Made by a program: the position numbers and the translations under genes. 64,000 bases of DNA from Candidatus Brocadia sinica JPN1 (GTDB taxonomy: Bacteria > Planctomycetota > Brocadiia > Brocadiales > Brocadiaceae). Below are positions 18,342 through 42,585 of this stretch, piece by piece. Under the pieces are notes generated by a model. It made no database searches, was not told the origin of the DNA, and worked only from the letters and a program-made list of their open reading frames with translations. The stretch is taken from positions 3,717,052-3,781,051 of the forward strand of contig NZ_BAFN01000001.1 in NCBI RefSeq assembly GCF_000949635.1. Reading direction: 5' to 3'. How positions within the stretch are numbered: the first letter of the stretch is position 1; each line of letters opens with the position of its first letter.

Positions 18342-20135
18342 TTAAAAAAAATTCTTTTTTAAAGCTACAAGATTCTGTAAGGCATAGTTGCATCCTGGGT
18401 CTATTTTTAGCGCCGCCTGGAGTCCAATCATTGCAGATTCTAATTTTCCCAATCTGGCGTAACAGGTGGCGATGTTCGTAATGACAGTTGCATCAGTGGG
18501 AGAGGTTTTAAGGTGTTTTTCTAACAGTTCGATGGCCTTCTCGTATTCCTCTGTTTCTATGCAGAGATTTCCGAGGTCGTGGTATACGCTACTATGTGAT
18601 GGGCTGGAGCTTAAAATGTTGTTGATAAACTGAACGACGCTCTTCTTGTCGCCTTTTTTGTATTTAATTCTTTCTGCAATACATTTAAGTCCCAGATGGT
18701 CTGGGTGAGACGAATTTATCTTTTTTAACGTCTCTTCTGCCTCGCTCAGGAGATTTGCTTCTATCTGCAAGTTTATCAAAAATATGTGTGCGTGTATATT
18801 TTTGCTATCTTTTTGGAGTAATTGTTTAACAGTATGAATGGCTTCATAAGGTTTTTTCCTCATCGCTTGTATCTTTCCCAGCAGGAGGTATATCTGATGG
18901 TTATTTGTGCCCAATTTTAGGGCAGCGCTGGCCATATTCTCAGCATCTTCTAAACGATTCTGAGAAACATATAAACTTGCAAGATTTGAGTAATAGAGTG
19001 GTTCTCTATTGTTGAGTTCTATTGCCTTTTTGTAAGCCACTTCAGCGTCGTTAATAAGTCCCAGACCCTCGTAGCATACTCCGATATTGTCATATGCCTT
19101 GCATTCATAATAATATGCATCAACGATTGACAGATTAAAGATGGGTTTTTTGTTTTCTTTATCTTTTGCAATAAGATATTTTTTGAAATACTGTAAGGCA
19201 TCGGCAAAGGCCTCCTTTTTTAATAGTATTTCTCCCAGAACAAATAAAATGTCGAGAGAATCAGGATTTTCTTTAATTGCCTCTTTACAGATTTCTTCTG
19301 CCCTGTCTATTTGATCCGTATTTAATAGGGCATATGCAAGGTCAAGGTATATTCTTTGCCTTTGACTTTGAGAATTAAAGTCTGTTTGTGACAGAGATAT
19401 ATTTAGTCCCTTTTCCCCTAATTCAATAACCTTCTCAAAGTTATATTCGTTTCTATAATTTCGGATGAGATTTGCTATAACAAAAATGTTATTGGGATTC
19501 TCAGCGAGTTGCTGTCGTAACAGGTCGCCTGTCCTTTTATATTTCCTTCGCATTTCAGATTCTGACAAATTGTAACCATAATGATAGAATCTTATTTCCG
19601 ATTGAAATGCCTTACCCTCGAAGATGAGCTGATTGTGTACAATTCCCTCGAAGTGGGCTTTTCCTCTGCGAAATACCCTTGTATAATAATGTTTTGACCG
19701 ACCACCGGGAAGATCACTATATATGGCGACAAATATGGCATTGTACGAATCAACTGTTATTAATTTGTGTAAAAGGGAGATGTCGGCCTGTTCCAGCGCC
19801 TCGTCCGCGTCGATTTGAAGAATCCAATCTCTTGTTGCGTAGTTCAGGGAGTGATTTCGCGCCTCACTAAAGCTATTCTTCCAGGGATGATAGTATACCC
19901 TTGCACCAAAGGATTGTGCGATTTCAACGGTCTTATCCGTCGAGCCCGTGTCAACAATAACAATTTCATCCACGGCATCTTTAATACTCTGTAAGCACTG
20001 GGGTAAAAATTTCTCTTCGTTCTTAACGATCATACATGCAGAGAGGGTAGGCCTGCCCCTGGATATCTTAACCAAGGATCTGCCATTCTTTTGTGAAGTA
20101 TGAAGATCTGTAATTGTCATCGATTGTTTCCCCAT
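18342..20135 (-). CDS. glycosyltransferase family 2 with C-terminal TPR repeats (copy A)
   Basis: A 597-residue protein from ATG 20135, whose first base overlaps the last base of the upstream gene's stop, suggesting coupled translation. GT2 domain at about residues 28-240: LSACMIVKNEEKFLPQCLQS at its start, VDTGSTDKTVEIA, and the nucleotide-sugar metal motif in LQIDADEALEQ. From about 250 to the end there are some eight to ten TPR units (for example NREPLYYSNLASLYVSQNRLEDAE). Paralogue of the next gene. Position directly upstream of flagellin suggests flagellin glycosylation; acceptor and donor are unknown. Confidence 0.88.
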   Translation of the reverse strand: MGKQSMTITDLHTSQKNGRSLVKISRGRPTLSACMIVKNEEKFLPQCLQSIKDAVDEIVIVDTGSTDKTVEIAQSFGARVYYHPWKNSFSEARNHSLNYATRDWILQIDADEALEQADISLLHKLITVDSYNAIFVAIYSDLPGGRSKHYYTRVFRRGKAHFEGIVHNQLIFEGKAFQSEIRFYHYGYNLSESEMRRKYKRTGDLLRQQLAENPNNIFVIANLIRNYRNEYNFEKVIELGEKGLNISLSQTDFNSQSQRQRIYLDLAYALLNTDQIDRAEEICKEAIKENPDSLDILFVLGEILLKKEAFADALQYFKKYLIAKDKENKKPIFNLSIVDAYYYECKAYDNIGVCYEGLGLINDAEVAYKKAIELNNREPLYYSNLASLYVSQNRLEDAENMASAALKLGTNNHQIYLLLGKIQAMRKKPYEAIHTVKQLLQKDSKNIHAHIFLINLQIEANLLSEAEETLKKINSSHPDHLGLKCIAERIKYKKGDKKSVVQFINNILSSSPSHSSVYHDLGNLCIETEEYEKAIELLEKHLKTSPTDATVITNIATCYARLGKLESAMIGLQAALKIDPGCNYALQNLVALKKNFF

Positions 20136-21913
20136 TAAGAACCTAATTTGTTTAAAGCCACAAGATTTTGTCTGGCATAAGTACATCCGGGGTCTATTTG
20201 TAACGCTGCCTGGAATCCGAATTTAGCAGATTCTAATTTACCTAATCTGGCATAACAGGTGGCAATGTTGGCAACAACGGTCGCATCAGACGGAGAGGTA
20301 GCAAGGTATCTTTCAAATAGTTCGATGGCTGTGGTATATTGCTCCATTTCTATACAAAGGTCACCAAGGTCGAGATAGATATCGTTATCTATGACATTGG
20401 ACTTTAGTATATTCTGAATAAATTTATTGGCGCTCTTCCGGTCACCCTTTTTATATTTGATTCTTTCCGAAAGGCATTTAAGTCGTAGGTTATCCAGGCA
20501 AGAAGGAATTATTCCTCTTAGCGTTTCTTCCGCCTCTGTAAGCTGATTTATCTGGATTGATAAGTTGATCAAATATATGTATGCTGTTACGTTGTTACCG
20601 TCGATACGAATCGAATGTTTAAAAGCATTGATAGCACTATTGTGTTTTTTTTGTGTGGCATATACCTTTCCCAATAAAAGATATGTCAAATGATTAGCGA
20701 TACCAAGTCTTACAGCAGTATCAGCTATATTTTCGGCCTCGTCTAAACGATTTTGAGAAATATAGAGTTGGGTAAGGTTTGAGTAGTATAGTGGTTCCTT
20801 ATTATTGAGTTCTATAGCCTTTTTATAAGCTACTTCAGCTTCATTGATAAGTCCCAGATGTCTGTAACATTCACCAATATTGTTATATGCACCGTGTTCA
20901 TAATAGTAAAAATCGGCAGAGAGTACTTTGAAAGAAGGCTCCCTGTTTTCTTTTTCCTTCAAAACAAGATACTTCTTAAAATAATTTAGGGCATCGCTGA
21001 ATGCTCTTTTTTTCAACAATATTTCTCCAAGTACCAGGAGGACGTCAAAGGAATCCGGGTTTTCTTTCAGTGCTTTTTTACAGACTTCTTCAGCCTTGTC
21101 CACTTGATTTGTATTTAACAGGGCATGTGCAAGGTCGATGGATATTCTTTGCCTTTGAATTTTAGAAACGAGGTCTGTTTGTGGTATGGATATATTTAGT
21201 CCTTTTTCTCCTAATTCAATAACCTTCTCAAAGTCATATTCATTTCTGTAGTTTCGAATGAGATTTGCCATAACAAAAATATTATTGGGATTCTCAGCGA
21301 GTTGTTGTCGTAATAAATCACCCGTCCTTTTATATTTCTTTTGCATTTCCGATTCGGATAAATTATACCCATAGTGATATAGCCTTATCTCTGATTGAAA
21401 CGCCTTACCCTCGAAGATGAGCTGATTGTGTACAATTCCCTCAAAATGGGCTTTTCCCCTGCGAAATATTCTTTGGAAGTAGTGTTTTGCCTGACCACCG
21501 GGGAGTTCACTATAAATAGCGACAAATATGACATTGCATGAATCAGTGGTTATTAATTTGTGTAAAAGGGGAATGTCGGCCTGTTCAAGCGCCTCATCTG
21601 CATCGATTTGAAGAATCCAATCACCGGTTGCGTAGTTCAGGGAATGATTTCGCGCCTCACTAAAGCTGTTCTTCCAGGGATGATGGTATACTCTTGCACC
21701 AAAAGATTGTGCAATTTCAACGGTCTTATCTGTCGAGCCTGTGTCGACAATAATCATTTCATCCACGGCATCTTTAATACTTTTTAAACACTGAGGTAAA
21801 AATTTCTCTTCATTTTTAACGATCATACATGCAGAGAGTGTAGGCCTGTTTCTGGATGTCTTAACCAGGGATCTGTCGTTATTTTGTATAAATTGATGTT
21901 CTATCATTGTCAC
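20135..21913 (-). CDS. glycosyltransferase family 2 with C-terminal TPR repeats (copy B)
   Basis: A 592-residue paralogue of the gene at 18342. In the first ~100 residues of the GT2 core the two differ at only about six positions (same LSACMIVKNEEKFLPQCL, VDTGSTDKTVEIAQSFGA, LQIDADEALEQ), and the DNA shares identical stretches of about 40 bases. The TPR half (from about residue 240) has diverged much further. This points to tandem duplication with different selection on the two halves or gene conversion. No membrane segment is seen; it should act in the cytosol. Likely role as for copy A, perhaps with different protein target set by the TPRs. Confidence 0.88.
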   Translation of the reverse strand: MTMIEHQFIQNNDRSLVKTSRNRPTLSACMIVKNEEKFLPQCLKSIKDAVDEMIIVDTGSTDKTVEIAQSFGARVYHHPWKNSFSEARNHSLNYATGDWILQIDADEALEQADIPLLHKLITTDSCNVIFVAIYSELPGGQAKHYFQRIFRRGKAHFEGIVHNQLIFEGKAFQSEIRLYHYGYNLSESEMQKKYKRTGDLLRQQLAENPNNIFVMANLIRNYRNEYDFEKVIELGEKGLNISIPQTDLVSKIQRQRISIDLAHALLNTNQVDKAEEVCKKALKENPDSFDVLLVLGEILLKKRAFSDALNYFKKYLVLKEKENREPSFKVLSADFYYYEHGAYNNIGECYRHLGLINEAEVAYKKAIELNNKEPLYYSNLTQLYISQNRLDEAENIADTAVRLGIANHLTYLLLGKVYATQKKHNSAINAFKHSIRIDGNNVTAYIYLINLSIQINQLTEAEETLRGIIPSCLDNLRLKCLSERIKYKKGDRKSANKFIQNILKSNVIDNDIYLDLGDLCIEMEQYTTAIELFERYLATSPSDATVVANIATCYARLGKLESAKFGFQAALQIDPGCTYARQNLVALNKLGS

Positions 21914-22062
21914 TGCTTCTTGCCACGCTGGAGGCTTTGTAACATTACTTGTAACTATTCAGAACAAAATATAAACTATATTCCCGAATTTTTAAATTCA
22001 ATGGATAATGTATACAGGGAATTTCAATCTTTTAAGTTAAGCAATGAATAAACACACCCCTA

Positions 22063-22106
22063 CCCCTCTCAAGAGGGGAATTTGAGAAATCCCCTCTTGG
22101 GAGGGG
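22063..22106. repeat. double C4/G4 hairpin
   Basis: CCCCTCTCAAGAGGGG (22063-22078) and CCCCTCTTGGGAGGGG (22091-22106) each fold on themselves, and together with flanking AATTT/AAAT form one longer hairpin. It lies in the 288-base gap between two glycosyltransferase genes and may act as terminator for the upstream one; the same type of C/G hairpin occurs near 1910 and 3272. Confidence 0.65.
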
Positions 22107-22201
22107 ATTGAGGGATGGGTAAAAATAAATGTCGTTGATTTTGCCTTTCAAAACCCAGCCTAATTTATCTCATGCTAAATTTGACTTCTAATTTTTAATC
22201 G

Positions 22202-23602
22202 TTATTTCCCTAACGCCGATCTATAACCAACAAGAGCTGCCCCTAAATGACCTAACTGCTCATACGATTGTGCAAGTTTTAGTAAGGCACTTCTATCTTC
22301 AGGATGTTTCTTTAAATATTCTTCGAGATAGGGAGTAGCTTTTTCATAGGCTTCTTGTTGTATATATAATTCTCCCAATTTTAATATCACATCATCATCT
22401 GCAATACCTTCAGAAACGGTTCTCAATAAAGTCTCGGTTGCTTCAACACGGTTATTGACATTGGAATAGCAGGATACCAGGTTCTTGTAAGCAGTAAGGT
22501 ACTTAGGGTTATACGATATAGCTTTTTGTAAATGCGATATGGCCGTTTCCCATTGCCCTAAATTCCCATAGCAATAACCCATTCCATGATAAGCTGCGTA
22601 ATCATATCCCAGTGTGTCAATCATAAGAGGATTCGTATGCATATTTTCAAGATACCATTCTCGTAAAGATAAGAACCGATTAAAGTAGTTAATTGCTTTG
22701 CGGTAACAACCCTCTTTTAAATATATGCAGGCGAGGGTAAATATAATGTCAATATTTTCCGGAGTAATTCCCAATTCTTCTAATCTTGATAAAGCGGTAT
22801 GGCATAATTCCTTTGCTTTTGCAAAATCTTCATTGTGGAGATAACAATTTGCCGTCTCATACATAATCATTGCATAATGGTGCAGATTAACACTTGTTCC
22901 AGTGGGTTTTAAGCAGGGATCAGGAGTAATTATCGCCAGTGCCTTTTCTCCTGCATTGATGCCATCATAAAACAAGTCTTGTGTACGATAATTGCGCACC
23001 AGATTAAACCATGAAAAACTATCGAATTTGTTTTGTTCAATTTGTTTTTTTAGTAAACGGGTAGTCCTTTGCCACTTTATCTGCATCTTTTTTTCGTCGA
23101 GATTATATCCGTGATGATAAAGCCTTATTTCCGTTGGTAATCGTACGCCTTCCGTAATGATTTGCTCGTGAATAATATCTTTGTAGAATCCTTTACCACG
23201 TCTGAAGACCCGTGTGTTATAAAATTTGTGTACGTTATCTTTTATGATGCTGTGGATGGCTATGATAATTGCATTATATTCTGGATTTTTTATAGCATGT
23301 TGTAGTTTTGGGATATCAGCCTGCTCCAGCTCTTCATCTGCATCAATCTGAAGGATCCAATCTCCCGAGGCATAATGTAAACAATGGTTTCTTGCCTCGC
23401 TGAAACTGTCATTCCATAGGTGGTTGTAAACCTTTGCCCCAAAATTTTTAGCAATAGTTATAGTATTATCGGTTGACCCCGTATCAACAACAATTATTTC
23501 ATCAACGGCATTTTTAATACTCTGTAAACAGTTAGGGAGAAGTTCCTCCTCATTTTTTACGATCATGCAGGCTGAGATCTTAGGTATCCTTATATTTTGC
23601 AT
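22202..23602 (-). CDS. glycosyltransferase family 2 with C-terminal TPR repeats (third copy)
   Basis: A 466-residue, more distant paralogue of the two downstream genes. GT2 domain at about residues 5-215 with ISACMIVKNEEELLPNCLQS, VDTGSTDNTITIA and LQIDADEELEQADIP (DxD metal site). TPR units follow from about 225 (for example YLTAYKNLVSCYSNVNNRVEATE and DVILKLGELYIQQEAYEKA). Shorter by about 130 residues than its paralogues, mainly through fewer repeats. It has its own 376-base upstream region, so it may start a transcription unit. Function inferred: protein or surface-glycan glycosylation. Confidence 0.85.
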   Translation of the reverse strand: MQNIRIPKISACMIVKNEEELLPNCLQSIKNAVDEIIVVDTGSTDNTITIAKNFGAKVYNHLWNDSFSEARNHCLHYASGDWILQIDADEELEQADIPKLQHAIKNPEYNAIIIAIHSIIKDNVHKFYNTRVFRRGKGFYKDIIHEQIITEGVRLPTEIRLYHHGYNLDEKKMQIKWQRTTRLLKKQIEQNKFDSFSWFNLVRNYRTQDLFYDGINAGEKALAIITPDPCLKPTGTSVNLHHYAMIMYETANCYLHNEDFAKAKELCHTALSRLEELGITPENIDIIFTLACIYLKEGCYRKAINYFNRFLSLREWYLENMHTNPLMIDTLGYDYAAYHGMGYCYGNLGQWETAISHLQKAISYNPKYLTAYKNLVSCYSNVNNRVEATETLLRTVSEGIADDDVILKLGELYIQQEAYEKATPYLEEYLKKHPEDRSALLKLAQSYEQLGHLGAALVGYRSALGK

Positions 23603-23978: not shown

Positions 23979-25142
23979 TCAGTGAGTTGTTATTTTTTCA
24001 GAAATACGGGTTTTGGTAATTATTGGTGTTTTGTTATCAATTAGTTTATGTCTGATGAAGTTGACAATACGTTGGGCTGCATGTCCATCGCCGAAAGGAT
24101 TTAAAAGATGCGTCATTCGATCGTATTCTTTCCTGTCTTCGAGCAAACGAATTGTTTCTGTAATGATAGTTTTGGTATGTACACCTACCAGTTTGGCACT
24201 TCCAGCTCTTACAGCCTCCGGGCGTTCTGTTACTTCACGAAGTATCAGGACAGGTTTATTTAAAGAAGGGGCCTCTTCCTGAATACCACCGGAATCAGTT
24301 AAAATAATATGGGCGCGTTTCATCAAGTGAACAAAAGGCACGTATTCCAACGGCTCGACAAGTATGATGTTCGATAAATTACCGAGCATGGGATATACAA
24401 CGTTCCTAACATTTGGATTGAGATGTACCGGATATACAAAAGTAACATCCGGGTATTGTTGGGCTAATGTTAGGATGGCATTGCATATATTGATGAACGG
24501 TTTTCCAAAGCTTTCCCGTCTGTGTGCTGTAATTAGTATCATTTTGCCTTTGATGTTGTTTAGCAGTTCATTGTCAAACTCAAAATCCTGTGTTGCAACA
24601 TCTAGCAGGGCATCTATGACGGTATTGCCCGTTACACAAATATGGTCTTTACTTACTCCTTCATTTAATAAATTACTTTTTGCATCATCAGTCGGCGCAA
24701 AGTGAAGATGCGCTATTACACTCGTGAGACATCGATTGACCTCTTCCGGGAAAGGTTGATATTTGTTAAGTGATCGTAATCCTGCCTCGACGTGTCCCAC
24801 GGGGATTTGCTTGTAATAGGCAGCCAGTGAGGCGGCAAATACAGTGGTTGTATCACCTTGTATTAAAACTAAATCCGGTCGTTCTTTTTCATAAATCGCC
24901 TCTATGTTTTTTAATATTTTGCATGTTATGTCGGATAGCCCTTGATTTTCATGCATGATGTTCATATCGTAATCAGGTTTTATGGCGAAGACATTCAGGA
25001 CGCTATCAAGCATTTGACGATGTTGAGCGGTAACGGTAACGACACTTTTCAGTGTGTCTGCGTGTTTTTGTAATTCTTTAATTACTGGCGCAAGTTTTAT
25101 GGCCTCTGGACGAGTACCAAAGACACTCATTATTTTGAACAT
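23979..25142 (-). CDS. wecB: UDP-N-acetylglucosamine 2-epimerase (non-hydrolysing)
   Basis: Converts UDP-GlcNAc to UDP-ManNAc for surface polysaccharide synthesis in the cytosol. The 387 residues have the family length. Visible motifs: MSVFGTRPEAIKLAPVI (about 4-20), TAQHRQMLDSVL, LIQGDTTTVFAASLAA (about 93-108), GHVEAGLRS, ITAHRRESFGKP (about 203-214) and LTDSGGIQEEAPSLNKPVLI (about 286-305). Its start overlaps the end of the upstream glycosyltransferase gene by 13 bases, implying one transcript. No ManNAc dehydrogenase lies nearby, so ManNAc itself may be the sugar used. Confidence 0.95.
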   Translation of the reverse strand: MFKIMSVFGTRPEAIKLAPVIKELQKHADTLKSVVTVTAQHRQMLDSVLNVFAIKPDYDMNIMHENQGLSDITCKILKNIEAIYEKERPDLVLIQGDTTTVFAASLAAYYKQIPVGHVEAGLRSLNKYQPFPEEVNRCLTSVIAHLHFAPTDDAKSNLLNEGVSKDHICVTGNTVIDALLDVATQDFEFDNELLNNIKGKMILITAHRRESFGKPFINICNAILTLAQQYPDVTFVYPVHLNPNVRNVVYPMLGNLSNIILVEPLEYVPFVHLMKRAHIILTDSGGIQEEAPSLNKPVLILREVTERPEAVRAGSAKLVGVHTKTIITETIRLLEDRKEYDRMTHLLNPFGDGHAAQRIVNFIRHKLIDNKTPIITKTRISEKITTH

Positions 25143-26233
25143 AGTATATGCTGTGTGTGATCCTCTGTACGAAATTCTGAAAGACCTACAACGGAGAGAA
25201 TGGTTTTAAATCTATTAGTCCAGGTGTGATCAAACAAACATCTGGTTCTTCCTGCTGCTCCAATTTTAAGAGCGATATCCGGGTGTAAAACGTAATATTG
25301 TAATTTTGAAATCAATTCCAATTTATTCCGGTAACAATCAACCTCTTCTCCGAGGATAAAACAGTTTTCCAGATCTTGATTGTAGGTTGTCAAATAGAGG
25401 CCTCCCATCAGGGGAACCTCAAAATCTCTTCCTTTTAATCCTGTTAGATGAGGAGAATTCCCAATAAGGCCAAACCCCAGGTTTATTAGTGAACGAGAAT
25501 AGATTGCGTTCATCTCTTGGTGTGATAGCTCTGCTGAAGGCCAGCCTTTGCCAAATGTTTGAACTGAAATCCCACAACTTTTTAACCATTCAATGATATG
25601 TGGTCGTATTCCGTAACATTGGCCAACAAAAGAAACAGGAATATCTCTTGGCACTGGCAGGGGAGAAAAGGAGTGAGTATTTCCGCCCGGTGGGAGAAAT
25701 AAGGCTCGGGCGCCAACTTTGACATATTTATGAATATCTTCCTCTGATTGGCAGGTGATGCAGAGGTCAAACTCAGGCGCAATTTCAGCATTACCAGAAA
25801 GACCGCTTGGCTCTTGGTATCCCCAGAATTTTATCTTGTCATCGAGGCTAATATTGACTGTTATCAGGTTCATTTTACCGATAGCTCGAATAGTTTTCGG
25901 ATAAACCCATCTTCCCGAAAGGTAAGAAAAGAAGAGATCGATCGGCTTTTCACGATGCGCTAATTTAACTTGCCGTATTAATTCCTTGTTAAAATCGGGC
26001 TTACCCCTCTGGTGCCAGTCGTGGGCATATTGATTGAAGGAATTTCCCCAATCATAATGAATAACATCAGCAATCTCAGCCCATCCATCTACCAGTCCGT
26101 GTTTTTCCCAATTAACGTGATGTACGGCTATGAAGATACGAGGTCTAGGTTTGCAAGTAGATATTTTGCCAATCTTTGCAAGATATGTTTTGATCGTGTC
26201 GATCTGTTCTTCGAAAGAAATGTGAAATACCAT
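25130..26233 (-). CDS. CgeB-like glycosyltransferase
   Basis: A 367-residue GT-B-type transferase of the CgeB / Glyco_trans_1_2 type. The N-terminal half has Rossmann-like strands (RIFIAVHHVNW, PIDLFFSYLSG). The C-terminal half carries PVSFVGQCYGIRPHIIEWLK (about 200-220), FGKGWP, and the donor-site block LKGRDFEVPLMGGLYLTTYN (about 268-287). It ends with the usual helix around ARTRCLFDHTW. No membrane segment. It overlaps wecB by 13 bases and lies in the same run as two similar transferases. Donor and acceptor unknown. Confidence 0.8.
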   Translation of the reverse strand: MVFHISFEEQIDTIKTYLAKIGKISTCKPRPRIFIAVHHVNWEKHGLVDGWAEIADVIHYDWGNSFNQYAHDWHQRGKPDFNKELIRQVKLAHREKPIDLFFSYLSGRWVYPKTIRAIGKMNLITVNISLDDKIKFWGYQEPSGLSGNAEIAPEFDLCITCQSEEDIHKYVKVGARALFLPPGGNTHSFSPLPVPRDIPVSFVGQCYGIRPHIIEWLKSCGISVQTFGKGWPSAELSHQEMNAIYSRSLINLGFGLIGNSPHLTGLKGRDFEVPLMGGLYLTTYNQDLENCFILGEEVDCYRNKLELISKLQYYVLHPDIALKIGAAGRTRCLFDHTWTNRFKTILSVVGLSEFRTEDHTQHILCSK

Positions 26234-26270: not shown

Positions 26271-27194
26271 TTACTTTGCGCCAGGTTTATTCTTGTTAAA
26301 ATTTACAGTTGCCAATAGTTGGTGCAACCTTTTCTCAAAACTATGGTGTTCAACAGCAAAATCATGCCCTGTTTCTGCAATTCTTTCCCTTTCATCCTCA
26401 TGGATGAGATAATATTGGATTTTTTTTGTAAGATCTTCAACGTCACCTTGACGCCATTGTACTAAGTGTTCTCCATCTATAAAAAGGTCCTGGCAGGAAA
26501 GTTCTTCGGTAAGGAGGAACGAACCAGATCCAAGTACCTCGCCTACGCGCGTCTCTATGTTAAGTAAATCAGAGAGATGTATGTTTAAAACGATCTTTGA
26601 TTCATTAAATATCTCATTTAATTCTTTGTTATCCCATGTATTAGGGATGAAAACGTTGAAATACTTTTCTAGAGCAATAAGAATGCTCTTACGCCGAGGG
26701 GTTTGGTTACCAATAAAGGTAATGTCATATTTTTTTTGCATATCAAGCTTTTTATGAATCTTTGTATTTACAGCAGTGCAAGGTAGCCAGTGGACATTTT
26801 TGCAACCGATGCTTTTATAAACTGGTATGTTGTTTTTATCATGAGAAAAGACATAATCAAAAGCAGTTGCATTATATTCTAGTTCTTTTCTTCTGAGAAG
26901 CGCTGCATAGTCTACTGCATTCTCGCTACCAATCTGCTCACAATACCATAAGGCAGTTGGATAGGGGAGTGACTTGATTAATTCTGGTGGAATGAATTCA
27001 CCTTTACAAACGAGAATCAGGTCAGTTTGCTGCTGTAAGAGTGTATGAAGATTTTGCCGCTCTTGCCGAAAGTCTGTGCTGATGACCGTGCAATTCATTT
27101 TCTCCAATGCCAAAATCAGATGATTTTCAAAACCCCATGGGTAATTTGTTTTTTGAGCACCGACGAGATGTACAGTTGTCATTTCCGATTCCAT
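26271..27194 (-). CDS. CgeB-like glycosyltransferase
   Basis: A 307-residue transferase related in layout to the downstream gene. N-terminal strands VHLVGAQKT and TDLILVCKGEF, then YDITFIGNQTPRRKSILIAL (about 158-177) and the C-terminal donor-site block NIETRVGEVLGSGSFLLTEE (about 215-234). GT-B fold inferred. Thirty-seven bases separate it from the next gene, so co-transcription is likely. The start codon is probably ATG 27194 or the internal ATG five codons later (MTTVHL). Sugar specificity cannot be read. Confidence 0.75.
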   Translation of the reverse strand: MESEMTTVHLVGAQKTNYPWGFENHLILALEKMNCTVISTDFRQERQNLHTLLQQQTDLILVCKGEFIPPELIKSLPYPTALWYCEQIGSENAVDYAALLRRKELEYNATAFDYVFSHDKNNIPVYKSIGCKNVHWLPCTAVNTKIHKKLDMQKKYDITFIGNQTPRRKSILIALEKYFNVFIPNTWDNKELNEIFNESKIVLNIHLSDLLNIETRVGEVLGSGSFLLTEELSCQDLFIDGEHLVQWRQGDVEDLTKKIQYYLIHEDERERIAETGHDFAVEHHSFEKRLHQLLATVNFNKNKPGAK

Positions 27195-27309: not shown

Positions 27310-27408
27310 TCAGACTTTTTTGTACGTATGATTTTTAAAGCGCATCTTTTCGAGGTTTTGTATAGCCTCTTTGTAGTTGGTATCCAAAATGATAGGTTTA
27401 TTGAACAT
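27310..27408 (-). pseudogene. TPR C-terminal remnant behind a glycosyltransferase
   Basis: A 32-codon frame beginning inside the end of the glycosyltransferase gene reads ILDTNYKEAIQNLEKMRF. This matches the last TPR helix pair of the genes at 30192 (SIDTHYKEAQQNLEKV) and 28459 (LIETNYKEARDNLKKI). It is in a different frame from the glycosyltransferase and lacks everything upstream. It looks like a leftover of a TPR module, not a gene. Confidence 0.7.
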
Positions 27409-28402
27409 TGTTTATTACTTCATATACTTTTTTACTAAAGGTATTGTAGTTATTGACACTGTTCCTTGCATTATTTTGCATTTTATAAACTAACTCAGGA
27501 TTCTTAATAAGGTAATCCATTTTAAAAACCAGGTCATTCATATCAACGATTTCTTCAGGAAAGGCGATGTTGTCTTGTCTGGTGAGTCTTTGAGCAACTT
27601 TAACCAGAAGACCATTATAATCATCCTGCACGAATTCATTCATAGGCGGTGCATCTGTGGCGATGGCCGGTAAACCACAAGCCATGCCTTCCAGAAGGGG
27701 TAATCCTAAGCCTTCCAGTTTGCTTGGAAAAACCAGTATACTGCCCTTATGGTAGAGACCAGGTGCAGGTACGGTTTCAACATGGTATGTGATTCTGGTA
27801 TTGTTATGCACTATATTTACGATTTGTGGTGGAAGTTTTTCTGGTTCAGCCTGGGCATGGATGAACAGTGTAACGTCGGGATTATGTCGGGAAATCGCAT
27901 CAAAGGCAAGGATGACGGCAGGGGTCATCTTCCGGTAGTTAATACCCAACCATCCGGCATTGTGGAAAAAGGTATATTTTTCCTCATCATTATTTAGAGG
28001 TTTAAAAAGTTCTGTATCGATTCCCCATCCGACGTAATAGGCATTGCAGAAATCTTTAACTAAATTAAATGTCCTTTTCGTGGAGCAAAGCACGGTATCG
28101 TACAAGTACATATAGGGTTTCCAATCATCCTTGTAATAATCAAGATAAGTAATGACTTTAGTACCTTTTTTCTTGCAAAAATCAACGAGACTCCAGTCAT
28201 ATTCTTCATTGAATATCACCGCATCAATTGCGTTGTCATCTATCCACTTTCCAATTACTTCATGCGGGATACTATAATCGTTAAATATCGTTAAATTAGG
28301 GACTGCCCATATGCCATCGGTTTGCAACATAGGGCGACCGTATACTCCGCCAGTTCTTGCAAAAACAAAAGTTTCATGTTCTTGAGCGATAACATCCCGC
28401 AA
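27398..28402 (-). CDS. glycosyltransferase family 4-like; true start unclear
   Basis: GT-B transferase with the GT4 donor-site pattern KGSILVFPSKLEGLGLPLLEGMACGLPAIATD (about residues 223-254 from TTG 28402). From that TTG the first beta strand of the fold is missing, yet the same frame continues upstream to 28474 and encodes it (LKIGFVSIWFERGQAYVTKT). No ATG, GTG or TTG exists in that extension. The extension overlaps the end of the TPR gene at 28459 in the -1 frame, next to an A7 run (28464-28470). Frameshifted fusion with the TPR gene or a rare start (ATT) are the options. Confidence 0.8.
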   Translation of the reverse strand: MRDVIAQEHETFVFARTGGVYGRPMLQTDGIWAVPNLTIFNDYSIPHEVIGKWIDDNAIDAVIFNEEYDWSLVDFCKKKGTKVITYLDYYKDDWKPYMYLYDTVLCSTKRTFNLVKDFCNAYYVGWGIDTELFKPLNNDEEKYTFFHNAGWLGINYRKMTPAVILAFDAISRHNPDVTLFIHAQAEPEKLPPQIVNIVHNNTRITYHVETVPAPGLYHKGSILVFPSKLEGLGLPLLEGMACGLPAIATDAPPMNEFVQDDYNGLLVKVAQRLTRQDNIAFPEEIVDMNDLVFKMDYLIKNPELVYKMQNNARNSVNNYNTFSKKVYEVINNVQ

Positions 28403-29232: not shown

Positions 29233-30126
29233 TTATACAAATTGTGTCCTTAAGATTTTAAGCGCGTTGTTTTCATTTTCTCTATATAAATAAAAGTTAA
29301 ACATTGATAGATGTCCCCCAGTATGGTGCATATAGTCGTAAATAGGAAAGTTTTTACAACGAAAATTCTTTATTGAAATATCACGAAACCATCCAACGGC
29401 AATGTCGAGTACAGATGTTCCTCTCCCTCCGTCAACCATTGCGCCGAAAGGTAACGCTATTCCTCTTGGAACTGTTAAATCCCTTGCAATTGCAAGATTA
29501 ATAAGTATACACCACTCATTAACTCTACATTCAGGTAAAGGCCATGGATTATTTTTAAATTGCTCGTGGAATTTCGGAATGTGATACGGTCTTTTTGTAT
29601 GCCCTGAAGGAGGTTCAACGGTTTCGTAAAGAGCAGATAACTCCACAAAAGAAGGCCTGTAGTTCCAGTAATTATTGGAATTGCACTTTTTTGTCCAGAA
29701 AGCAGGGCAGTTCCAGCATTGCCCAATAGAGCCAATAGCAATATTGTCTCCTATGTTTTTGAGAAATGCCCCTATAATATCATCGTGATAGATACAGTCA
29801 TTATGGGTAATAAAGATAAAATCCTTATTTGATTTTTCCCATCCGTATTGGTACCTTATAGACGATCTGTATTCATCTTCTCCAAGCCTTTTCACGTCTA
29901 TAGGGTTTGTCCACAACCAGTATTTTGGAATATAATATTCAAGATTGGGAAGCCTATTTTTTATAAGGGCGCTGGAACTTTTCTCAGGATCATTTTGTAA
30001 GTTCTCTTCAATGAAGAATATCTTATCTATGTATTTCCCAGAATAGCGATTCAGGGAAAGAAGTGCCAGAGTAGTTTGAAAGGGCTTTTTGCACACATTA
30101 ATTATACAGTCTACTTTGTCTGGCAT
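29233..30126 (-). CDS. putative GT-A-like glycosyltransferase of unnamed family
   Basis: A 297-residue protein without signal peptide. The start VDCIINVCKKPFQTTLALLSL resembles the first strand and helix of GT-A transferases, and FIFITHNDCIYHDDII (about 104-119) has the look of a metal-binding DxD-like site. The later part holds GGRGTSVLDIAVGWF and HHTGGHL, possibly acceptor-site segments. Six Cys residues are spread along it. It lies 65 bases downstream of the giant transferase gene. The fold is an inference from short motifs; I do not recognise the family. Confidence 0.55.
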   Translation of the reverse strand: MPDKVDCIINVCKKPFQTTLALLSLNRYSGKYIDKIFFIEENLQNDPEKSSSALIKNRLPNLEYYIPKYWLWTNPIDVKRLGEDEYRSSIRYQYGWEKSNKDFIFITHNDCIYHDDIIGAFLKNIGDNIAIGSIGQCWNCPAFWTKKCNSNNYWNYRPSFVELSALYETVEPPSGHTKRPYHIPKFHEQFKNNPWPLPECRVNEWCILINLAIARDLTVPRGIALPFGAMVDGGRGTSVLDIAVGWFRDISIKNFRCKNFPIYDYMHHTGGHLSMFNFYLYRENENNALKILRTQFV

Positions 30127-30191: not shown

Positions 30192-33100
30192 TTACAAGCA
30201 GTTTTTCTCCTGAATCCTGGATACCTTTTCAAGATTTTGTTGCGCCTCCTTATAATGAGTATCTATCGATAGCGCTTTTTCAAAACAAATTCTCGCATCG
30301 GAGTACATATTCTTTTTAAAGTACAAAACTCCCAGATTATTATGTATAGATGCAGCACCACCATCCAATTCAATCACTTTTTTATAAGCATCAATGGCGC
30401 TATCCATTTTTCCACTCATTTGATATGCAAGTCCAATACCACACAAAGCAGCCACATCAATAGGATTGGTTTTCAGTACCTTCAAATAGAGTTCAATGGC
30501 CTCACCAATATTTTCCAATTCCAGCGCCTGTTGACCTTGAGTGACGAGGGCAGTATTAGCATCAACCAAACTACTGTGTAATTCAAGCAACTCCTCATAG
30601 TTAATATTTGGCCATTTTTCTTTAAACTTAGTCCCATTGACGGATAGACTGTTTCGATAATCAATTTTATTTTCAATGAAGGTCTGGCTTCTGTAATGAT
30701 GGATGAACACACTTTCATCCACCATAATTGCGTAACCCTTTTCATGGACTTTTAAACATAGGTCATCGTCTTCGTAATTTCCTGTGCCAAAGGATTCATC
30801 AAGTCCGCCAACTTCATCATAAAGCGCTTTTTTCATCAGAATCGCAAAACCAGCAATGCGGTATCGTGGGGTCAGCCGCCCGTTGTATGCCTTTCTTACC
30901 TTTTGAGCAAAAATATGAAACCCGTTTTCATCGCTATAGGGAATATCCCTTACCATTTGCCTGCCGCTGATAGAATTTGTTATCGGTCCTACCATACCAA
31001 TTTTTTTATCCCTTTCCAGGTTTTCCACAAGGCTCTCCAGCCAACCATCAGAAACCAGGACATCATTATTGAGCAGCATTACGTAATTTCCACTTGCTGC
31101 AGACACTCCCTGGTTATTGCCGGCTGCAAAGCCCTTGTTTTCTTTATTCTCAATAAGTTTGTAGTCTGTTCCTGTATGTTTTGAACAGGAATTTAGATGT
31201 TCTTTAACCAATTTGCGGAGGTATGCTGCGGTGCCATCTGTTGACCCATTATCTACAAAAATAATCTCATGTGGATATCCTGTGTGCCTCTGGATTGAAC
31301 TGATACACTGTTGTGTGTATTTTAAGGCATTGTAAGTGAGGATGATTATAGAGACGAGTTTTTGCGGTTTGCTAGATAGCGATCCGGCAGAAATCATATT
31401 GGGTATGTGATAGCGCTGTATTCTGTTATTTTCAGTAATTGTAGTTGAGCCGTCTTCCCTTATAATAATATCCGGTTTAATCTTACCAATCCACTTGCTA
31501 TGCAATCGCTGAATATTTTCTAAAATTTTTGAAAAACGTTCAGGGCCGCTTTTTGACTCATGATGAATTACAACACCCTCAGGCTGGTAAACAAGTTTCC
31601 ACCCCTTCTCTTGAAGTTTAAAGCATAAGTCAACATCTTCGTATCCATTCCAGTAACCCTCATCAAAACCACCGACTTCATTGAATGCAGATTTACGCAT
31701 TAATAAGCAAGCTGCGGTTAAGGCTTGATACCGACGTAATTGGTTCACCTCAGCGATATCCATGGGTTGCCCATAATAAATATGTCTGGCAACCAGAGGA
31801 TCAGGTAATTTTTGATCATCGAAAATGACAACCCCGGCATGCTGAATTGTTCCGTCCGGGAACAAGAGTTTACCTCCCACTGCTCCTACTGAATTATCTT
31901 GTGTAAGTATATTGAGAAGCGGTTCCAGCCAGTCTTTCCTGGGTTCTGTATCGTTGTTTAAAAAGAGGAGATAATCGGTGGAAGCCATCCGTGCCCCCTG
32001 ATTACAAGCCTTGGAAAAACCAAGGTTCTTATCATTGGTGATAATTTTAACATCGCCATCTAAACACTTAAGAAAATCCCTGGTACCATCCGTGGAGGCA
32101 TTATCAATAATGATAACTTCGTATAAATCTCTCGGTGTGTTTTTGACTATTGCTTCAAGGCAATTTCGAGTAAATTCAACTTTGTTAAAAACGGGGATAA
32201 TGATGGAAACCTTCTGAAGGTGTTTAATCCATGCAGTTTGTAAATTTAAAATACGTTGCTTGCCTTTTGTATGTTCTCCGTATCTTTCATAAATAATGTT
32301 CAATGTTCTCAGAAAATCAGCCCGCTTTTTACTAGACATGCTGGTGCTATCCGTTCTCCATGCAAACTCACAAGTGATCTTCCTTATGTGAGCGAAATTG
32401 TATTTTCGGGACATGCGGATCCATAAATCCCAATCTTCATGGGTGGTGAGTGATTCATCGAAAAGACCTACTTCATCTATACACGATTTATTATGCATAA
32501 TGCAGAGTACCGGGAAAAGGTTTTGTGCCAAAATGAGGTCTGATTCAAAATCAAAGGAATAAGGAAAGTCTTTTCGTTTTGCTACATACCTTCCATTCTC
32601 TTTTTCTTGCCATACACGGTATGCATCTGTATAGGCCACTTTATAATCATTGTTTTCTAAAAAATTAACGAGTGTTTCTACGTGATCTTCGTAAAAAATG
32701 TCATCGTCATCGAGGTAAGCAATATATTTACCCGTTGTATGCTTGATGGCAGTATTTCTTGCTGCTGCAAGTCCTTTATTCTCTTTGTGTACGAGATACT
32801 TAATAAATAATCTCTCTCGAAAGGCATCAACAATAGTTGATACGTCCTCTCCTGCATCGTTAACCAGAACGGCTTCGATACGTTTGTAGGTCTGTGATGC
32901 AATACTTTCCAGTGTTTTTTTCAAGGTATCTGGCCTGTTGTAAGTCGGTACAATAACAGAAACAAGAGGGTCGGGTTTCGATTTTTCAGCTAGACATTGA
33001 TCTAATATTTTTTTTGCCTCTAAACGGTATTTTTCGTCGTAAAGGTTTGGGTGATTGATAACAATTTGAGCCATTAACTCACTATGATGCTCAAGGGCTT

Positions 33101-34772
33101 TTGTATACATACTGCTCTCTTTAACGCGATACATAAATAAAGGTTCAGGAATTCTCCTTCCATAATAGCCCTTTTCTCCACAGGATATCCAGAAATCCCA
33201 GTCTTCATAACCCCAGGTCATGTTGGGATTATACCCACTTACGGACTCCCAGGCTTTGCATCGATACAGTGAGCAATAGTTGAGATGGTTTTGAAAGCAC
33301 AATCGTTTAAAATCATACTCTCCTGCACAAATAATTCGATTCGCACTGCCAAAATGCTTTACATCAGTATAGGCAATTGCAATCTCTGGGTGAGTTTCCA
33401 AGAGAGAAACCGTCTTCTCTAACATTTCGGAATGTATTAAATCATCCGCATCGAGCGGAAGGATGTATTTCCCCTGAGAAACCTTGATTCCCGCGTTCCG
33501 TGCACATGACAATCCCTGGTTAATCTGATTAATGAGTCGGATTTGATTGTCTGGATATTTTTGAATTAACGATTCGGCAACTTGAGTTGTATTGTCGAGG
33601 CTGCCATCATTAACAATAATGCACTCCCAGTTTTTATAGTTTTGATTAATCACGCTTTCTACTGCTTCTGGTAAGAAGTGCGCCTGGTTGTAACAAGGAA
33701 TTATTACCGAAACGAGTGGTTCAGAGGATTGGTCTAATGATATATGATCTGTTTGATTTTTTAGATTCAAAGCGCTTTTTTCGATTATATTTGAGCCAAA
33801 TCGTTTTATATTTATGTAATAATCAAATATCTCGCCAAAGCGGTGATGCCATGTATGTTCAGCTATGGTTCGCTTGTATCCATTTATTGCTATTTCGTTT
33901 CTTTCGTCTTCGTTCTTAAGATAGTATTTTGCCTTATCTATTAATTCTTCTACAGAATTGAATATTACTATCTCTTTCCCATCTACATAATATTCAGTTA
34001 AATTTTCAGCATTACTGGTTAATTGGAAACTTCTTGTTCCGGGGATCTCAAAGTTTCTTCCTTTTATCTGTTGACCAATTAAAGTTGACGAATTAGATAA
34101 ATTGAGGTTGATTTTACACCTGGAAAATAACCTGACCATTTGATGAAAGGGGACACGTGGCCGATTTTCCCATCCAAAACCAAATACTTCTAACTTGAGT
34201 CCATTTACAACTAATTTTGACAAGACTTCTACACGGTTACCATGAGGCTGTCCTACAAAACTAATATCTAAATTTTTTTGGATATCATAAGGGATATACA
34301 ATTCATGATTACATGCCCATTGAGTTTTAATAACTTTATGGGATATCCCAAGTTTTTCATACTTTGGAAGGGCACTATTAGCAGTCGTGCATACATAATC
34401 AAAATGAGGGGCAACCACTGAGCTATACTTTTCAAATCTCCAGTGGTCATCACAAAACCAATGGATAGTTGTTGTACCTAATGTGGATATTTGTTTAAAT
34501 GCCTCGTGGAGGGGATCGCGATGGAAATCGAATAATACTGCAAAAAGATAAGTGGGTCTTTCTTTCCTGGCTAGTTCATACAATTCCTGTGTCATTAAAT
34601 CGATGCCAATATTCAATCCACGTTCCATGAAATCGTAGTTGACAAAATCCCAATCACGCCTTTTACAATAACATTGTAGTGGGTGGTAAAAATTTCGGTG
34701 TTCAAAGGAAAAACCCCTCGATTTATCCCCGTAGTCATATTTCATTCCTACATATAACAATTTTGGTTTCAT
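30192..34772 (-). CDS. giant multi-domain glycosyltransferase: CgeB-like + four GT2 + TPR
   Basis: A 1526-residue protein with five transferase-like units. Residues 1-345: CgeB-like GT-B domain (DISFVGQPHGNR; GRNFEIPGTRSFQLTS). About 353-600: GT2 (VSVIIPCYNQAHFLPEAVES, LPLDADD). About 602-850: GT2 (VSVIVPTYNRPDTLKKTLES, AYLDDDD). About 853-1130: GT2 of the rhamnosyltransferase type (VSIIIPVFNKVEFTRNCLEA, LFLNNDTEP). About 1138-1400: a second such GT2 (VSIIILTYNALKYTQQC, LLNNDV). About 1405-1526: three TPR units. It could build several linkages of one glycan. The neighbour at 34776 ends four bases upstream of its start. No frameshift seen. Confidence 0.9.
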   Translation of the reverse strand: MKPKLLYVGMKYDYGDKSRGFSFEHRNFYHPLQCYCKRRDWDFVNYDFMERGLNIGIDLMTQELYELARKERPTYLFAVLFDFHRDPLHEAFKQISTLGTTTIHWFCDDHWRFEKYSSVVAPHFDYVCTTANSALPKYEKLGISHKVIKTQWACNHELYIPYDIQKNLDISFVGQPHGNRVEVLSKLVVNGLKLEVFGFGWENRPRVPFHQMVRLFSRCKINLNLSNSSTLIGQQIKGRNFEIPGTRSFQLTSNAENLTEYYVDGKEIVIFNSVEELIDKAKYYLKNEDERNEIAINGYKRTIAEHTWHHRFGEIFDYYINIKRFGSNIIEKSALNLKNQTDHISLDQSSEPLVSVIIPCYNQAHFLPEAVESVINQNYKNWECIIVNDGSLDNTTQVAESLIQKYPDNQIRLINQINQGLSCARNAGIKVSQGKYILPLDADDLIHSEMLEKTVSLLETHPEIAIAYTDVKHFGSANRIICAGEYDFKRLCFQNHLNYCSLYRCKAWESVSGYNPNMTWGYEDWDFWISCGEKGYYGRRIPEPLFMYRVKESSMYTKALEHHSELMAQIVINHPNLYDEKYRLEAKKILDQCLAEKSKPDPLVSVIVPTYNRPDTLKKTLESIASQTYKRIEAVLVNDAGEDVSTIVDAFRERLFIKYLVHKENKGLAAARNTAIKHTTGKYIAYLDDDDIFYEDHVETLVNFLENNDYKVAYTDAYRVWQEKENGRYVAKRKDFPYSFDFESDLILAQNLFPVLCIMHNKSCIDEVGLFDESLTTHEDWDLWIRMSRKYNFAHIRKITCEFAWRTDSTSMSSKKRADFLRTLNIIYERYGEHTKGKQRILNLQTAWIKHLQKVSIIIPVFNKVEFTRNCLEAIVKNTPRDLYEVIIIDNASTDGTRDFLKCLDGDVKIITNDKNLGFSKACNQGARMASTDYLLFLNNDTEPRKDWLEPLLNILTQDNSVGAVGGKLLFPDGTIQHAGVVIFDDQKLPDPLVARHIYYGQPMDIAEVNQLRRYQALTAACLLMRKSAFNEVGGFDEGYWNGYEDVDLCFKLQEKGWKLVYQPEGVVIHHESKSGPERFSKILENIQRLHSKWIGKIKPDIIIREDGSTTITENNRIQRYHIPNMISAGSLSSKPQKLVSIIILTYNALKYTQQCISSIQRHTGYPHEIIFVDNGSTDGTAAYLRKLVKEHLNSCSKHTGTDYKLIENKENKGFAAGNNQGVSAASGNYVMLLNNDVLVSDGWLESLVENLERDKKIGMVGPITNSISGRQMVRDIPYSDENGFHIFAQKVRKAYNGRLTPRYRIAGFAILMKKALYDEVGGLDESFGTGNYEDDDLCLKVHEKGYAIMVDESVFIHHYRSQTFIENKIDYRNSLSVNGTKFKEKWPNINYEELLELHSSLVDANTALVTQGQQALELENIGEAIELYLKVLKTNPIDVAALCGIGLAYQMSGKMDSAIDAYKKVIELDGGAASIHNNLGVLYFKKNMYSDARICFEKALSIDTHYKEAQQNLEKVSRIQEKNCL

Positions 34773-34775
34773 TGT

Positions 34776-37700
34776 TTATTGTGATAACTGTTGATATATT
34801 TCAAGCAATGTGGGGTTATCATTATCTAACTCTAATGCGTCTTCAATATACATCTTTGCATCCAGGAACTTTCCTTGATTCATCAAAGCATGTGCAGCTT
34901 CAATGTAAAGACTTACGTTTTGCGTATTCTTATCGATCATCTTCTGAATGTTATCTATATCCCTAATCTTTACGGCTTCTACATGATAACCAACAGTAAA
35001 TTGATCAATAAAGTGCTTTTTCTCTAATGCGAACAAATATCGTGGAATCCACTCACCAAATAGATTTTGAATAAACTCTATGTTGTTGCCATGCAAATGC
35101 TGGTGTTGTGGTAATGTCCATGCCACCCGGGCACATTCCTGAGCAAGCAGTTTGAAAAAACCGCCATTTGGTATGATTTCTGAAACGTACAGTCCAAACT
35201 TTTTACAAAAATGTCTGTACCATTCTGGCGTGTAACCACCGTAGTAGTGATACGGTATTTGATGCAATCCCGCACCGAGCGGAGCGGTAATGAAAAGCCG
35301 TCCACCAGGCCGTAATATTCTAGTCATTTCCCGCATTGCTTCAATTGGTTCTGGAGTGTGTTCCAGAACTTCGGTGCAAATAATTACATCAAAGGAGTTG
35401 TCGGGAACTGGTATAGCGCTGATGTCTGATTCATAATCAATACTCCCGTACTCCTTCGTCCCTCCAAGCTTTTCACCGGCATATTTTTTGAAATCATGAG
35501 TCTTGTAGATACAATGAACAAAGAATGGACGATAAGGACATGTTCCCGCTCCTATGTCCAGGACACGTGATCCAGACGGGACAGTTAATGCCTTTGCGTG
35601 TACCCACCTATCCCGACTTCTCTGGTTGAAGTTATGAAGTTCATCTATGGACAGCTCCGGCACAGATTGTTGGAAGACCTTAAGGACATCAGAAATCTGA
35701 GAACCTGTGGGATATTGCACATCATGGGATGTTACCTTTTGGTTATCTAAAAGTATAGTGCGCAACTGCCTTTTCCAGATTTCAAAAGTTGGCTGCTCCA
35801 TTGAAGAAACGGTACTTTCCAATAGCAATTCATCGGCAACTATCAATTGTTTTTCCAGTGGAACATTCTGAGATTTTACTGCAATCGCCGTAACGTTTGA
35901 TAAAAATGGCTCATGGGGCCAAGAGCTTGCTTGTATCAGGACGGTACCAAATCCCAATCGGTTCAGGGTATGCTCAAACCTTTCAGGAAACCACTGGTCG
36001 ACGTGGTATGCCCAACCAGAGGACTGATCTCCGGTAATATGACGGACGACCCCCATTTTTGTCTTCCAGGAAGATTCAGTCAATAATGTTTTAGCACTTC
36101 CCATAAGATCAGGTGTCTCGATGTGCAGTTTACCACCGATCTTTAACCAGTTATGCCATTTGATCAGCATAGCCAGGGCGGTAACACGATTAAAGTGTTC
36201 AAAGACATGGTGTGACCTGACCTCGTCTACAGACCCTGCAGGAAAATCTAATTCCGTAATGTTCGCATAAACGTCCGCATTCACCTGCATGACATTATGC
36301 TCACTTGGTGGATAATCAATATTTACATAACCATCGAGGTGCTGTTCTCCGCAACCAAGGTGAAGGCGAAGTGGCTGATTGTCACCACAAAGACCTGTAA
36401 TATGGAGTTGTTCGAGAACATTGGTATTAACAATTGAAATCGTATTTCTTATATTTGTTATTGCAGCTGATTTATAAGGAAGAATGTGTTTAATTTCATG
36501 AGTAAAATTTTTTTTATTATTAAAAGATAACGTATCGTACTTTGCGTAAATGTCACCCCAATATAACTGATCTGTCGAACGTTCCAGTTTTTTAAAAAGA
36601 GTTTTTGAGGGAACCCATTCGGAAAGAACCAGTTGAGATATTTCTCCTTCGGAAAAATTAAAGAATTTGTAACCGAGCTTTTCCAAATGAGACACGCACT
36701 GCTTTGCACGATCAAGAAATTCAATTGTAAATTCAAATGATAAATATGGAACTGGTTTAGATAAACCACACAGAACTTGATATTCAAATCCTTCTACATC
36801 AATCTTGATGTATTGAGGGAATCCATAAGTATGAATAGCGTCATCAAGAGTAATTACTTCTACCTCGTCAGATTTATCCCATGTATAGTCAGCAAATCTT
36901 CCCTTTTTCCATTCATCTGAAAAAGTGGAGATTGTGTTAGCCTGCGAGCATACAGAAAGTAGCATTTTCCCATTTTTATCAGCCAACCCTTTTTCAACAA
37001 TTACTACTCTTTTGTCATTGCCGTACTTCTTCCGCAATATCTTTGTGCAATCAGATTGAGGTTCAAAACAAATTACCTTTGCGCCATTTTCTAAAAACAT
37101 ATAAGTCTTGTCGCCTACATTTGCTCCAATATCAAATACGATATCTCCGGGGCCATAAAAATTTCGCATTAACAGCATCTTGTTGTCCTGTACATGATCT
37201 GGCTGTGTTTGATTACCCTGTAAATTATAAGCCGTTAAAGAAGAATTTATTTCTCGATTTTCAACCCAGTCAAGTATCTGGCGAACTAACCTTTCTGTTG
37301 TATGAAAACTCTTTATTTTGCTTCTGGCATTTGCTGAAATCCGCCTGGCAAAATTAGGCTCACGCAAAATCCGTTGTATATGTTCAGCCAACTGATAAGG
37401 ATTATCTCCCTTGTACAATAAAATTTCTTTCCCATCCTCAAAGAGAGCTTTGGTTCTCGGTCGATCGGTGATTTCATAGCTTACAACAGGTCGTCCTGCA
37501 GCCATCCCTTCAAGTACACGGCTTGCATAACCCTTACCAAATTGTGGTAAATTCACAATCGCTGCCCCCATACTCAGTCCCCTCAGCCAAAGGGCAAAGC
37601 ATTCTCTGCGAATGACACGCAAAGAGTCTATATAAGTTGAAAAAAAATCTTCGGTAGCGGCATTCCCTTCCTTTAAAAACGCCTCAGAAGTAGCGTTCAA

Positions 37701-38399
37701 TTTATCAAAAAGACCAGGCAGATTGGTGTTATATTCTGGTGAGGCCACTGGGCGGACAAGTAAACCCTTCAAGGCACTATGTTCCAGCCATTTTTTCCTT
37801 TCACCATAGAGAGACCCGTAAAAAACCGCACAATTATTGGGTGCGGGCGTTGACGGAAGTTCCTTGCAGATGAAACGATCAGGCATTATTCCGGCATCCC
37901 ACAACCATTTGGCTTTTACCAAGTTATGGGTGTTAAAATTTTCCACATCTTTTTCGTCAATAGCAACGACATGCGTTACAAATTTAAAATTCCTTTCGAG
38001 ATTAGCTCGCCGTCTTTTGACACCTTCGGGATTATTTACAAGTTCATCAGGGTGCATTTCATAGCTTTCCCAGACAAAGCCAATACGAACCGGAGCTATC
38101 GCCGCAATCCAATCCAGGAAATCCTCGTCAAACCTGCTATGGACCATCTCCAGCCAAACCTGATTGAAGTTTTTTCCTGCACAGAGTTTACGTGCGTGGT
38201 TGAGCCATGATATTTGTTCGGAAGATGTCGTTTCATAAAAGGCTGGAATCGTCAGATATTCCACCCCGTTGGCAGCAAACCCTTCTTCAAAACCATAATT
38301 TCCCGAGTAAGGAAAGTGGCTTGCATTTTGCCACGTTTTAAACTCTAAAGGAATATATAAAACTCTCAGGCTGGCACGATTTTTAACAGACACAGACAT
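34776..38399 (-). CDS. multi-domain glycosyltransferase / FkbM methyltransferase / two further methyltransferases / TPR
   Basis: A 1207-residue protein. About residues 10-385: GT-B-type transferase (ASRVLEGMAAGRPVVSYE donor site; NARSKIKSFHTTERL). About 410-620: FkbM methyltransferase (GDIVFDIGANVGDKTYMFL, YIKIDVEGFEYQVL). About 676-840: class I methyltransferase (LHLGCGEQHLDGYVNIDY, VRSHHVFEHF). About 941-1100: another class I methyltransferase (GSRVLDIGAGTCPYRPFF, DVIICTEVLEHT). About 1145-1207: one or two TPR-like units. It would add a sugar and methylate the product. Closely packed with the 1526-residue gene, four bases apart. Confidence 0.87.
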   Translation of the reverse strand: MSVSVKNRASLRVLYIPLEFKTWQNASHFPYSGNYGFEEGFAANGVEYLTIPAFYETTSSEQISWLNHARKLCAGKNFNQVWLEMVHSRFDEDFLDWIAAIAPVRIGFVWESYEMHPDELVNNPEGVKRRRANLERNFKFVTHVVAIDEKDVENFNTHNLVKAKWLWDAGIMPDRFICKELPSTPAPNNCAVFYGSLYGERKKWLEHSALKGLLVRPVASPEYNTNLPGLFDKLNATSEAFLKEGNAATEDFFSTYIDSLRVIRRECFALWLRGLSMGAAIVNLPQFGKGYASRVLEGMAAGRPVVSYEITDRPRTKALFEDGKEILLYKGDNPYQLAEHIQRILREPNFARRISANARSKIKSFHTTERLVRQILDWVENREINSSLTAYNLQGNQTQPDHVQDNKMLLMRNFYGPGDIVFDIGANVGDKTYMFLENGAKVICFEPQSDCTKILRKKYGNDKRVVIVEKGLADKNGKMLLSVCSQANTISTFSDEWKKGRFADYTWDKSDEVEVITLDDAIHTYGFPQYIKIDVEGFEYQVLCGLSKPVPYLSFEFTIEFLDRAKQCVSHLEKLGYKFFNFSEGEISQLVLSEWVPSKTLFKKLERSTDQLYWGDIYAKYDTLSFNNKKNFTHEIKHILPYKSAAITNIRNTISIVNTNVLEQLHITGLCGDNQPLRLHLGCGEQHLDGYVNIDYPPSEHNVMQVNADVYANITELDFPAGSVDEVRSHHVFEHFNRVTALAMLIKWHNWLKIGGKLHIETPDLMGSAKTLLTESSWKTKMGVVRHITGDQSSGWAYHVDQWFPERFEHTLNRLGFGTVLIQASSWPHEPFLSNVTAIAVKSQNVPLEKQLIVADELLLESTVSSMEQPTFEIWKRQLRTILLDNQKVTSHDVQYPTGSQISDVLKVFQQSVPELSIDELHNFNQRSRDRWVHAKALTVPSGSRVLDIGAGTCPYRPFFVHCIYKTHDFKKYAGEKLGGTKEYGSIDYESDISAIPVPDNSFDVIICTEVLEHTPEPIEAMREMTRILRPGGRLFITAPLGAGLHQIPYHYYGGYTPEWYRHFCKKFGLYVSEIIPNGGFFKLLAQECARVAWTLPQHQHLHGNNIEFIQNLFGEWIPRYLFALEKKHFIDQFTVGYHVEAVKIRDIDNIQKMIDKNTQNVSLYIEAAHALMNQGKFLDAKMYIEDALELDNDNPTLLEIYQQLSQ

Positions 38400-42582: not shown

Positions 42583-42585
42583 GGC

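Follow-up and report, generated by a model that had tools for sequence, protein, structure and literature searches.

Enzymes that join a glycosyltransferase to a TPR domain have been described in several flagellin glycosylation systems. In Caulobacter crescentus, the N-terminal TPR domain of FlmG binds flagellins, while the GT-B domain alone does not, and both domains are required (PMC7591256). GmaR of Listeria monocytogenes, composed of GT2, TPR, and antirepressor domains, glycosylates flagellin, and recognition of flagellin by the TPR part has been proposed by its authors (PMC9638930). The C-terminal TPR domain of Maf-1 confers flagellin specificity according to work cited in a study of Clostridium (PMC13317340), in which proteins were themselves called flagellin glycosyltransferases when they combined GT2 with TPRs. 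Literature searches on flagellin glycosylation in Brocadia or Kuenenia gave nothing useful. The locus reported here was originally predicted to have no described counterpart; since FlmG, GmaR, Maf-1, and the clostridial GT2-TPR enzymes are known, the core of our finding is of a familiar kind.

The window, i.e. the whole stretch of 64,000 nucleotides that was analysed (G000:C1:3717052-3781051, in a genome of 4.08 Mb), covers a flagellar locus of Candidatus Brocadia. Two flagellar blocks, recognised by their Pfam matches, flank a set of glycan genes at 18342-49274: FlaG, FliS, FliD, and FliC at 13952-18177 on one side, and FliW (51176-51643), FlgL (51917), FlgK (52850), FlgN (54825), and further rod and hook genes on the other. 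FliC (17251-18177), the assigned glycan genes, the free TPR gene discussed below, and the start of the flg block all lie on the minus strand. The flagellin, our presumed acceptor, is a protein of 308 aa with Flagellin_N/C matches, and Ser and Thr make up 27% of its residues 141-222. Near the start of the window, an ORF at 410-934 (174 aa) matches the deoxyhypusine synthase family, though only that family's C-terminal half.

Next to fliC lie three genes whose products consist of a GT2 domain followed by TPRs: protein B (18342-20186, TPR array at ~18342-19370, TPR_19 E=8e-34), a paralogue of A that is also the fliC neighbour in relatives; protein A (20135-21913, TPR solenoid at ~20135-21163, E=1e-34), with 77% identity to its counterpart in Candidatus Brocadia sp. 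AMX1; and protein C (22202-23602, TPR array at ~22202-22897, TPR_2 E=3e-19). They are followed by a UDP-GlcNAc 2-epimerase family protein (23979-25142, Epimerase_2 E=9e-120) and two glycosyltransferases lacking TPRs (25130-26233 and 26271-27194, Glyco_trans_1_2). Protein D (30192-34772) has five glycosyltransferase domains, four of them GT2 and one GT1-type, and ends in a TPR array at residues ~1411-1507 (~30192-30575, TPR_1 E=3e-19). Protein E (34776-38399) combines a GT1-type domain with an FkbM methyltransferase and further methyltransferase domains. An ORF at 29233-30126 (297 aa), within the same island, had no Pfam or NCBIfam match, and its AlphaFold2 model, made without an alignment, reached a mean pLDDT of 33. 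Genes for sugar donors and modifications occupy 38440-49274 and, by Pfam, encode an RmlC-like epimerase, methyltransferases, a B12 radical SAM protein, an aldo/keto reductase, two SDRs, a transketolase, a GHMP kinase, and a nucleotidyltransferase. The transketolase is present as two adjacent halves (44573-46377) beside the GHMP kinase, nucleotidyltransferase, and B12 radical SAM genes, a combination which suggests an unusual sugar donor.

Of five glycan enzymes that the original prediction had ending in TPRs, B, A, C, and D clearly do so. The tail of E contains a single weak hairpin (TPR_8 E=0.006, residues 1163-1195, ~34815-34913), which is under the Pfam cut-off; it is nevertheless conserved in relatives, and its homologue in a genome of the same genus (G016, 48% identical) coincides with a Pfam TPR_2 match. 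As for the two free TPR proteins of that prediction, the one at 49729-50847 is confirmed, while the other (28459-28893) turned out to be half of a split gene. Its TPRs and the GT4-type glycosyltransferase encoded at 27398-28402 form one ORF of 465-543 aa, TPRs first, in ten relatives (G015, G017, G020, G022, G023, G024, G031, G038, G039, and G041), and both domains were detected by Pfam in the intact G031 copy; 28459 is therefore not a free TPR protein. The shift of frame in the window occurs at ~28459-28474, adjoining a run of seven A, and may reflect a true mutation, slippage, or a fault in the assembly. The corrected inventory thus counts four proteins as clear fusions and E as a weak one; beside these stand a gene split in two and a single free TPR protein.

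We suggest that this island probably directs cytoplasmic O-glycosylation of flagellin, with TPRs serving to bind the acceptor. According to this scheme, A, B, C, and the TPR-GT4 enzyme (28459 plus 27398) would bind newly made flagellin via their TPR domains and attach the first sugars to it; the other glycosyltransferases, including the five-domain protein D, would then lengthen the glycan; methyltransferases of E and neighbouring genes would modify it, using sugar donors that the 38440-49274 genes would supply; and flagellin would be exported after modification. The sequence of these steps and the make-up of the glycan are inferred. The original proposal that TPRs dock the enzymes on their acceptor is retained here: neighbouring genes, co-occurrence, and precedents in the literature make a good case for flagellin in this role, and from these we infer the binding.

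The TPRs themselves are of several types. In a within-genome comparison, those of A and B were paralogous (469 bits) and those of C akin to them (65 bits vs 37 for background), while the TPRs of 28459 and D were mutual best matches (83 vs 65; 82 vs 54). No special likeness to the set was seen for the tail of E, for 49729, or for the two TPR proteins of a second flagellin locus (see below). One TPR module common to all is thereby rejected, and the single scaffold originally envisaged finds no support for the whole set. When a profile of the 28459/D type, hereafter module M, was built from relatives only, leaving this genome out, it scored 132 bits on 28459 and 116 bits on D, while the highest score among 35 background TPR loci was 72 bits. 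By sequence likeness, this supports a reused module for this subset. In relatives, M occurs at both flagellar loci and in several architectures: TPR-GT4 enzymes and larger glycosyltransferase fusions carry it N-terminally, D-like and giant proteins C-terminally. The islands of relatives include ORFs of 2736 aa (L042:10014-18221), 2077 aa (L060:6249-12479), and 1814 aa (L037:9542-14983), in which GT2, GT4, GT9, or methyltransferase domains are joined to TPRs.

Module M is conserved in Brocadiaceae and is joined, at one end or the other, to putative initiating, extending, and modifying enzymes. This distribution raises the possibility, which we regard as rather unlikely, that M acts as an address tag. 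It would then dock the TPR-GT4 enzyme, D, and the giant glycosyltransferase and methyltransferase fusions of relatives (some >2,000 aa) to one partner, so that the glycan is built in a single cytoplasmic complex. That partner could be flagellin, the free TPR protein 49729 as a hub, or the modules themselves, and such a complex would be compatible with flagellin glycosylation as proposed above. Both the profile scores and the recurrence of M in several architectures fit this arrangement. However, A, B, C, E, and 49729 have TPRs of types other than M, and domain shuffling from common descent would account for the likeness of the M copies without any common partner. Two copies from the same genome are also barely more alike than copies from different genomes (0.49 vs 0.47); concerted evolution of M within genomes was accordingly dropped as an explanation, the effect being small and confounded by relatedness. 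With M, the idea that several enzymes of a pathway share one docking tag can be put to the test.

Single orthologues of 49729 (372 aa), which lies between the sugar genes and fliW, were found in 20 Brocadiaceae genomes at 56-85% identity, and at the loci examined they adjoin fliW-flgL-flgK. A second Brocadiales family has, in five genomes, a free TPR ORF of 206-216 aa after flgK-flgL-fliW (L124:3605-4252, L125:4922-5548, L126:1545-2177, L127:2049-2681, and L128:3565-4182), which corresponds to 49729 by position, not by sequence. Our guess is that 49729 is a co-factor of flagellin or of the hook-filament region. In a further TPR protein, of 462 aa (L115:231-1616), the C-terminal domain of RNA polymerase alpha is matched twice.

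A tight link to flagellin is seen across the order. Among 62 Brocadiales genomes, a strong GT2-TPR match was present in 33 of the 37 with flagellin and in 1 of the 25 without (Fisher 5e-12); for Brocadiaceae alone, the counts were 21 of 22 and 0 of 11. These figures are inflated by relatedness. In G043, the single exception in that family, the flagellin gene lies where a contig ends. Counting against our reading, a close GT2-TPR match is likewise absent from the flagellin-bearing genomes G001, G002, and G061. The gene order C-A-B-fliC-fliD-fliS is repeated in relatives, and in the second family most matches are only a few kilobases away from flagellin. In five assemblies (G031, G029, G030, G024, and G014), the GT2-TPR gene does not adjoin flagellin, which also counts against our reading. 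Furthermore, the genome under study has a second flagellin locus (L072:7221-11180, G000:C1:2757220-2761179), ~975 kb away and unlinked to the window. Its flagellin gene, 89% identical, is followed by genes for a GT2-TPR protein of 430 aa and a TPR-GT4 protein of 488 aa (N-terminal TPRs plus a GT4 domain), an arrangement conserved in several relatives. The pair of GT2-TPR and TPR-GT4 enzymes is thus present twice, each time by a flagellin gene.

These observations bear on whether the acceptor might instead be some other component of the cell surface, polymer or protein (S-layer, LPS, or capsule), the linkage to flagellar genes being incidental. D, E, and the sugar genes do lie within the flg locus, and G016, in which neither flagellin nor the GT2-TPR pair was found, has kept D, an E-like protein, 49729, and flg genes. 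As G016 retains both D and 49729 in this state, these two appear to track the flg locus rather than flagellin itself, although the absence of flagellin there may be due to a missing contig. Given that GT2-TPR genes co-occur with and adjoin flagellin at two loci, we consider a different acceptor improbable. A hydropathy scan revealed no membrane-spanning stretch in any of the TPR proteins, and no flippase or oligosaccharyltransferase family is among the Pfam matches of the island. The latter also speaks against another acceptor, and together the two results fit direct cytoplasmic glycosylation.

Sequence searches with protein A placed its GT domain closest to GmaR among solved structures (phmmer E=7e-37), followed by SunS, and a DAD motif (residues 104-106 of A) is invariant when A, B, and C are aligned with their counterparts in L001. 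The AlphaFold2 model of A, run with six sequences, shows a confident solenoid of TPR helix pairs over residues 187-591, with a GT domain that is in part poorly modelled, and the best fold matches of the model are to the TPR superhelix of OGT. Counting against acceptor binding by the TPRs, orthologues vary more in the TPR part (mean entropy 1.18) than in the GT part (0.55). The groove of the A/B solenoids is only slightly more conserved than the outer face (p=0.017); this excess is weak, and the idea of a clear conserved surface patch was dropped. A shared TPR surface and co-occurrence in related genomes were the two marks by which the original prediction was to be judged, and while the co-occurrence is strong, a surface common to all the TPRs is absent.

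GmaR, the closest solved GT domain, is bifunctional, and the TPRs of the island could by analogy be regulatory, as is the part of GmaR that acts in Listeria as an antirepressor and couples glycosylation to flagellar gene expression. We regard this as very unlikely, because the PDB sequence matches of A cover the GT chain of GmaR and none reaches its C-terminal antirepressor part, and because the model of A has TPR-like pairs up to the C-terminus.

The genome is rich in TPRs, with at least 124 TPR_16 matches, so the presence of TPRs by itself means little. Of its 33 ORFs with a GT2 domain, five carry TPRs, namely A, B, C, D, and the 430-aa protein of the second locus. That these fusions are mere coincidence in such a genome is rejected with near certainty, as TPRs are found on 5/5 GT2 ORFs at flagellin loci vs 0/28 elsewhere (Fisher 4e-6; of the 28, the seven largest were scanned with Pfam and the rest checked against the TPR matches listed) and relatives throughout the family keep the arrangement.

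Protein A resembles GmaR in having an N-terminal GT2 domain with TPRs directly after it, and appears to differ from it at the C-terminus, up to which TPR-like pairs continue in the model and where GmaR has its antirepressor domain. The S-glycosyltransferase SunS has a related GT2 domain and acts on a peptide, a bacteriocin. The intact orthologues of 28459 plus 27398, as well as the 488-aa protein of the second locus, can be likened to FlmG by their domain order, with N-terminal TPRs and a C-terminal glycosyltransferase; ten relatives and the second flagellin locus have this architecture, which the frameshift splits in the window. FlmG transfers pseudaminic acid, whereas no pseudaminic acid synthase family is among the Pfam matches of the window. 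Maf-1 likewise carries its TPRs at the C-terminus, but its catalytic family is a different one, and no match to it was found among the Pfam matches of the window ORFs. The resemblance to OGT, the top fold match of the model, is limited to the TPR part of A: OGT has a GT41 catalytic domain, of which there is none by Pfam in these enzymes, the catalytic domains being GT2 or GT4/GT1-type. A parallel at the level of gene clusters is with the islands of Clostridium, where flagellin-linked GT2-TPR enzymes also occur, with one or two reported per island, compared to three here along with a TPR-GT4 enzyme and a multi-glycosyltransferase protein with a TPR tail.

If our reading is correct, TPR-guided flagellin glycosylation reaches the anammox planctomycetes, and separate flagellin loci each combine the two arrangements already known, GT2-TPR and TPR-GT4. 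Set against the described systems, this case stands apart in how many TPR-tagged enzymes it has and how varied they are, in their presence at two flagellin loci, and in the spread of module M over several multi-enzyme proteins.
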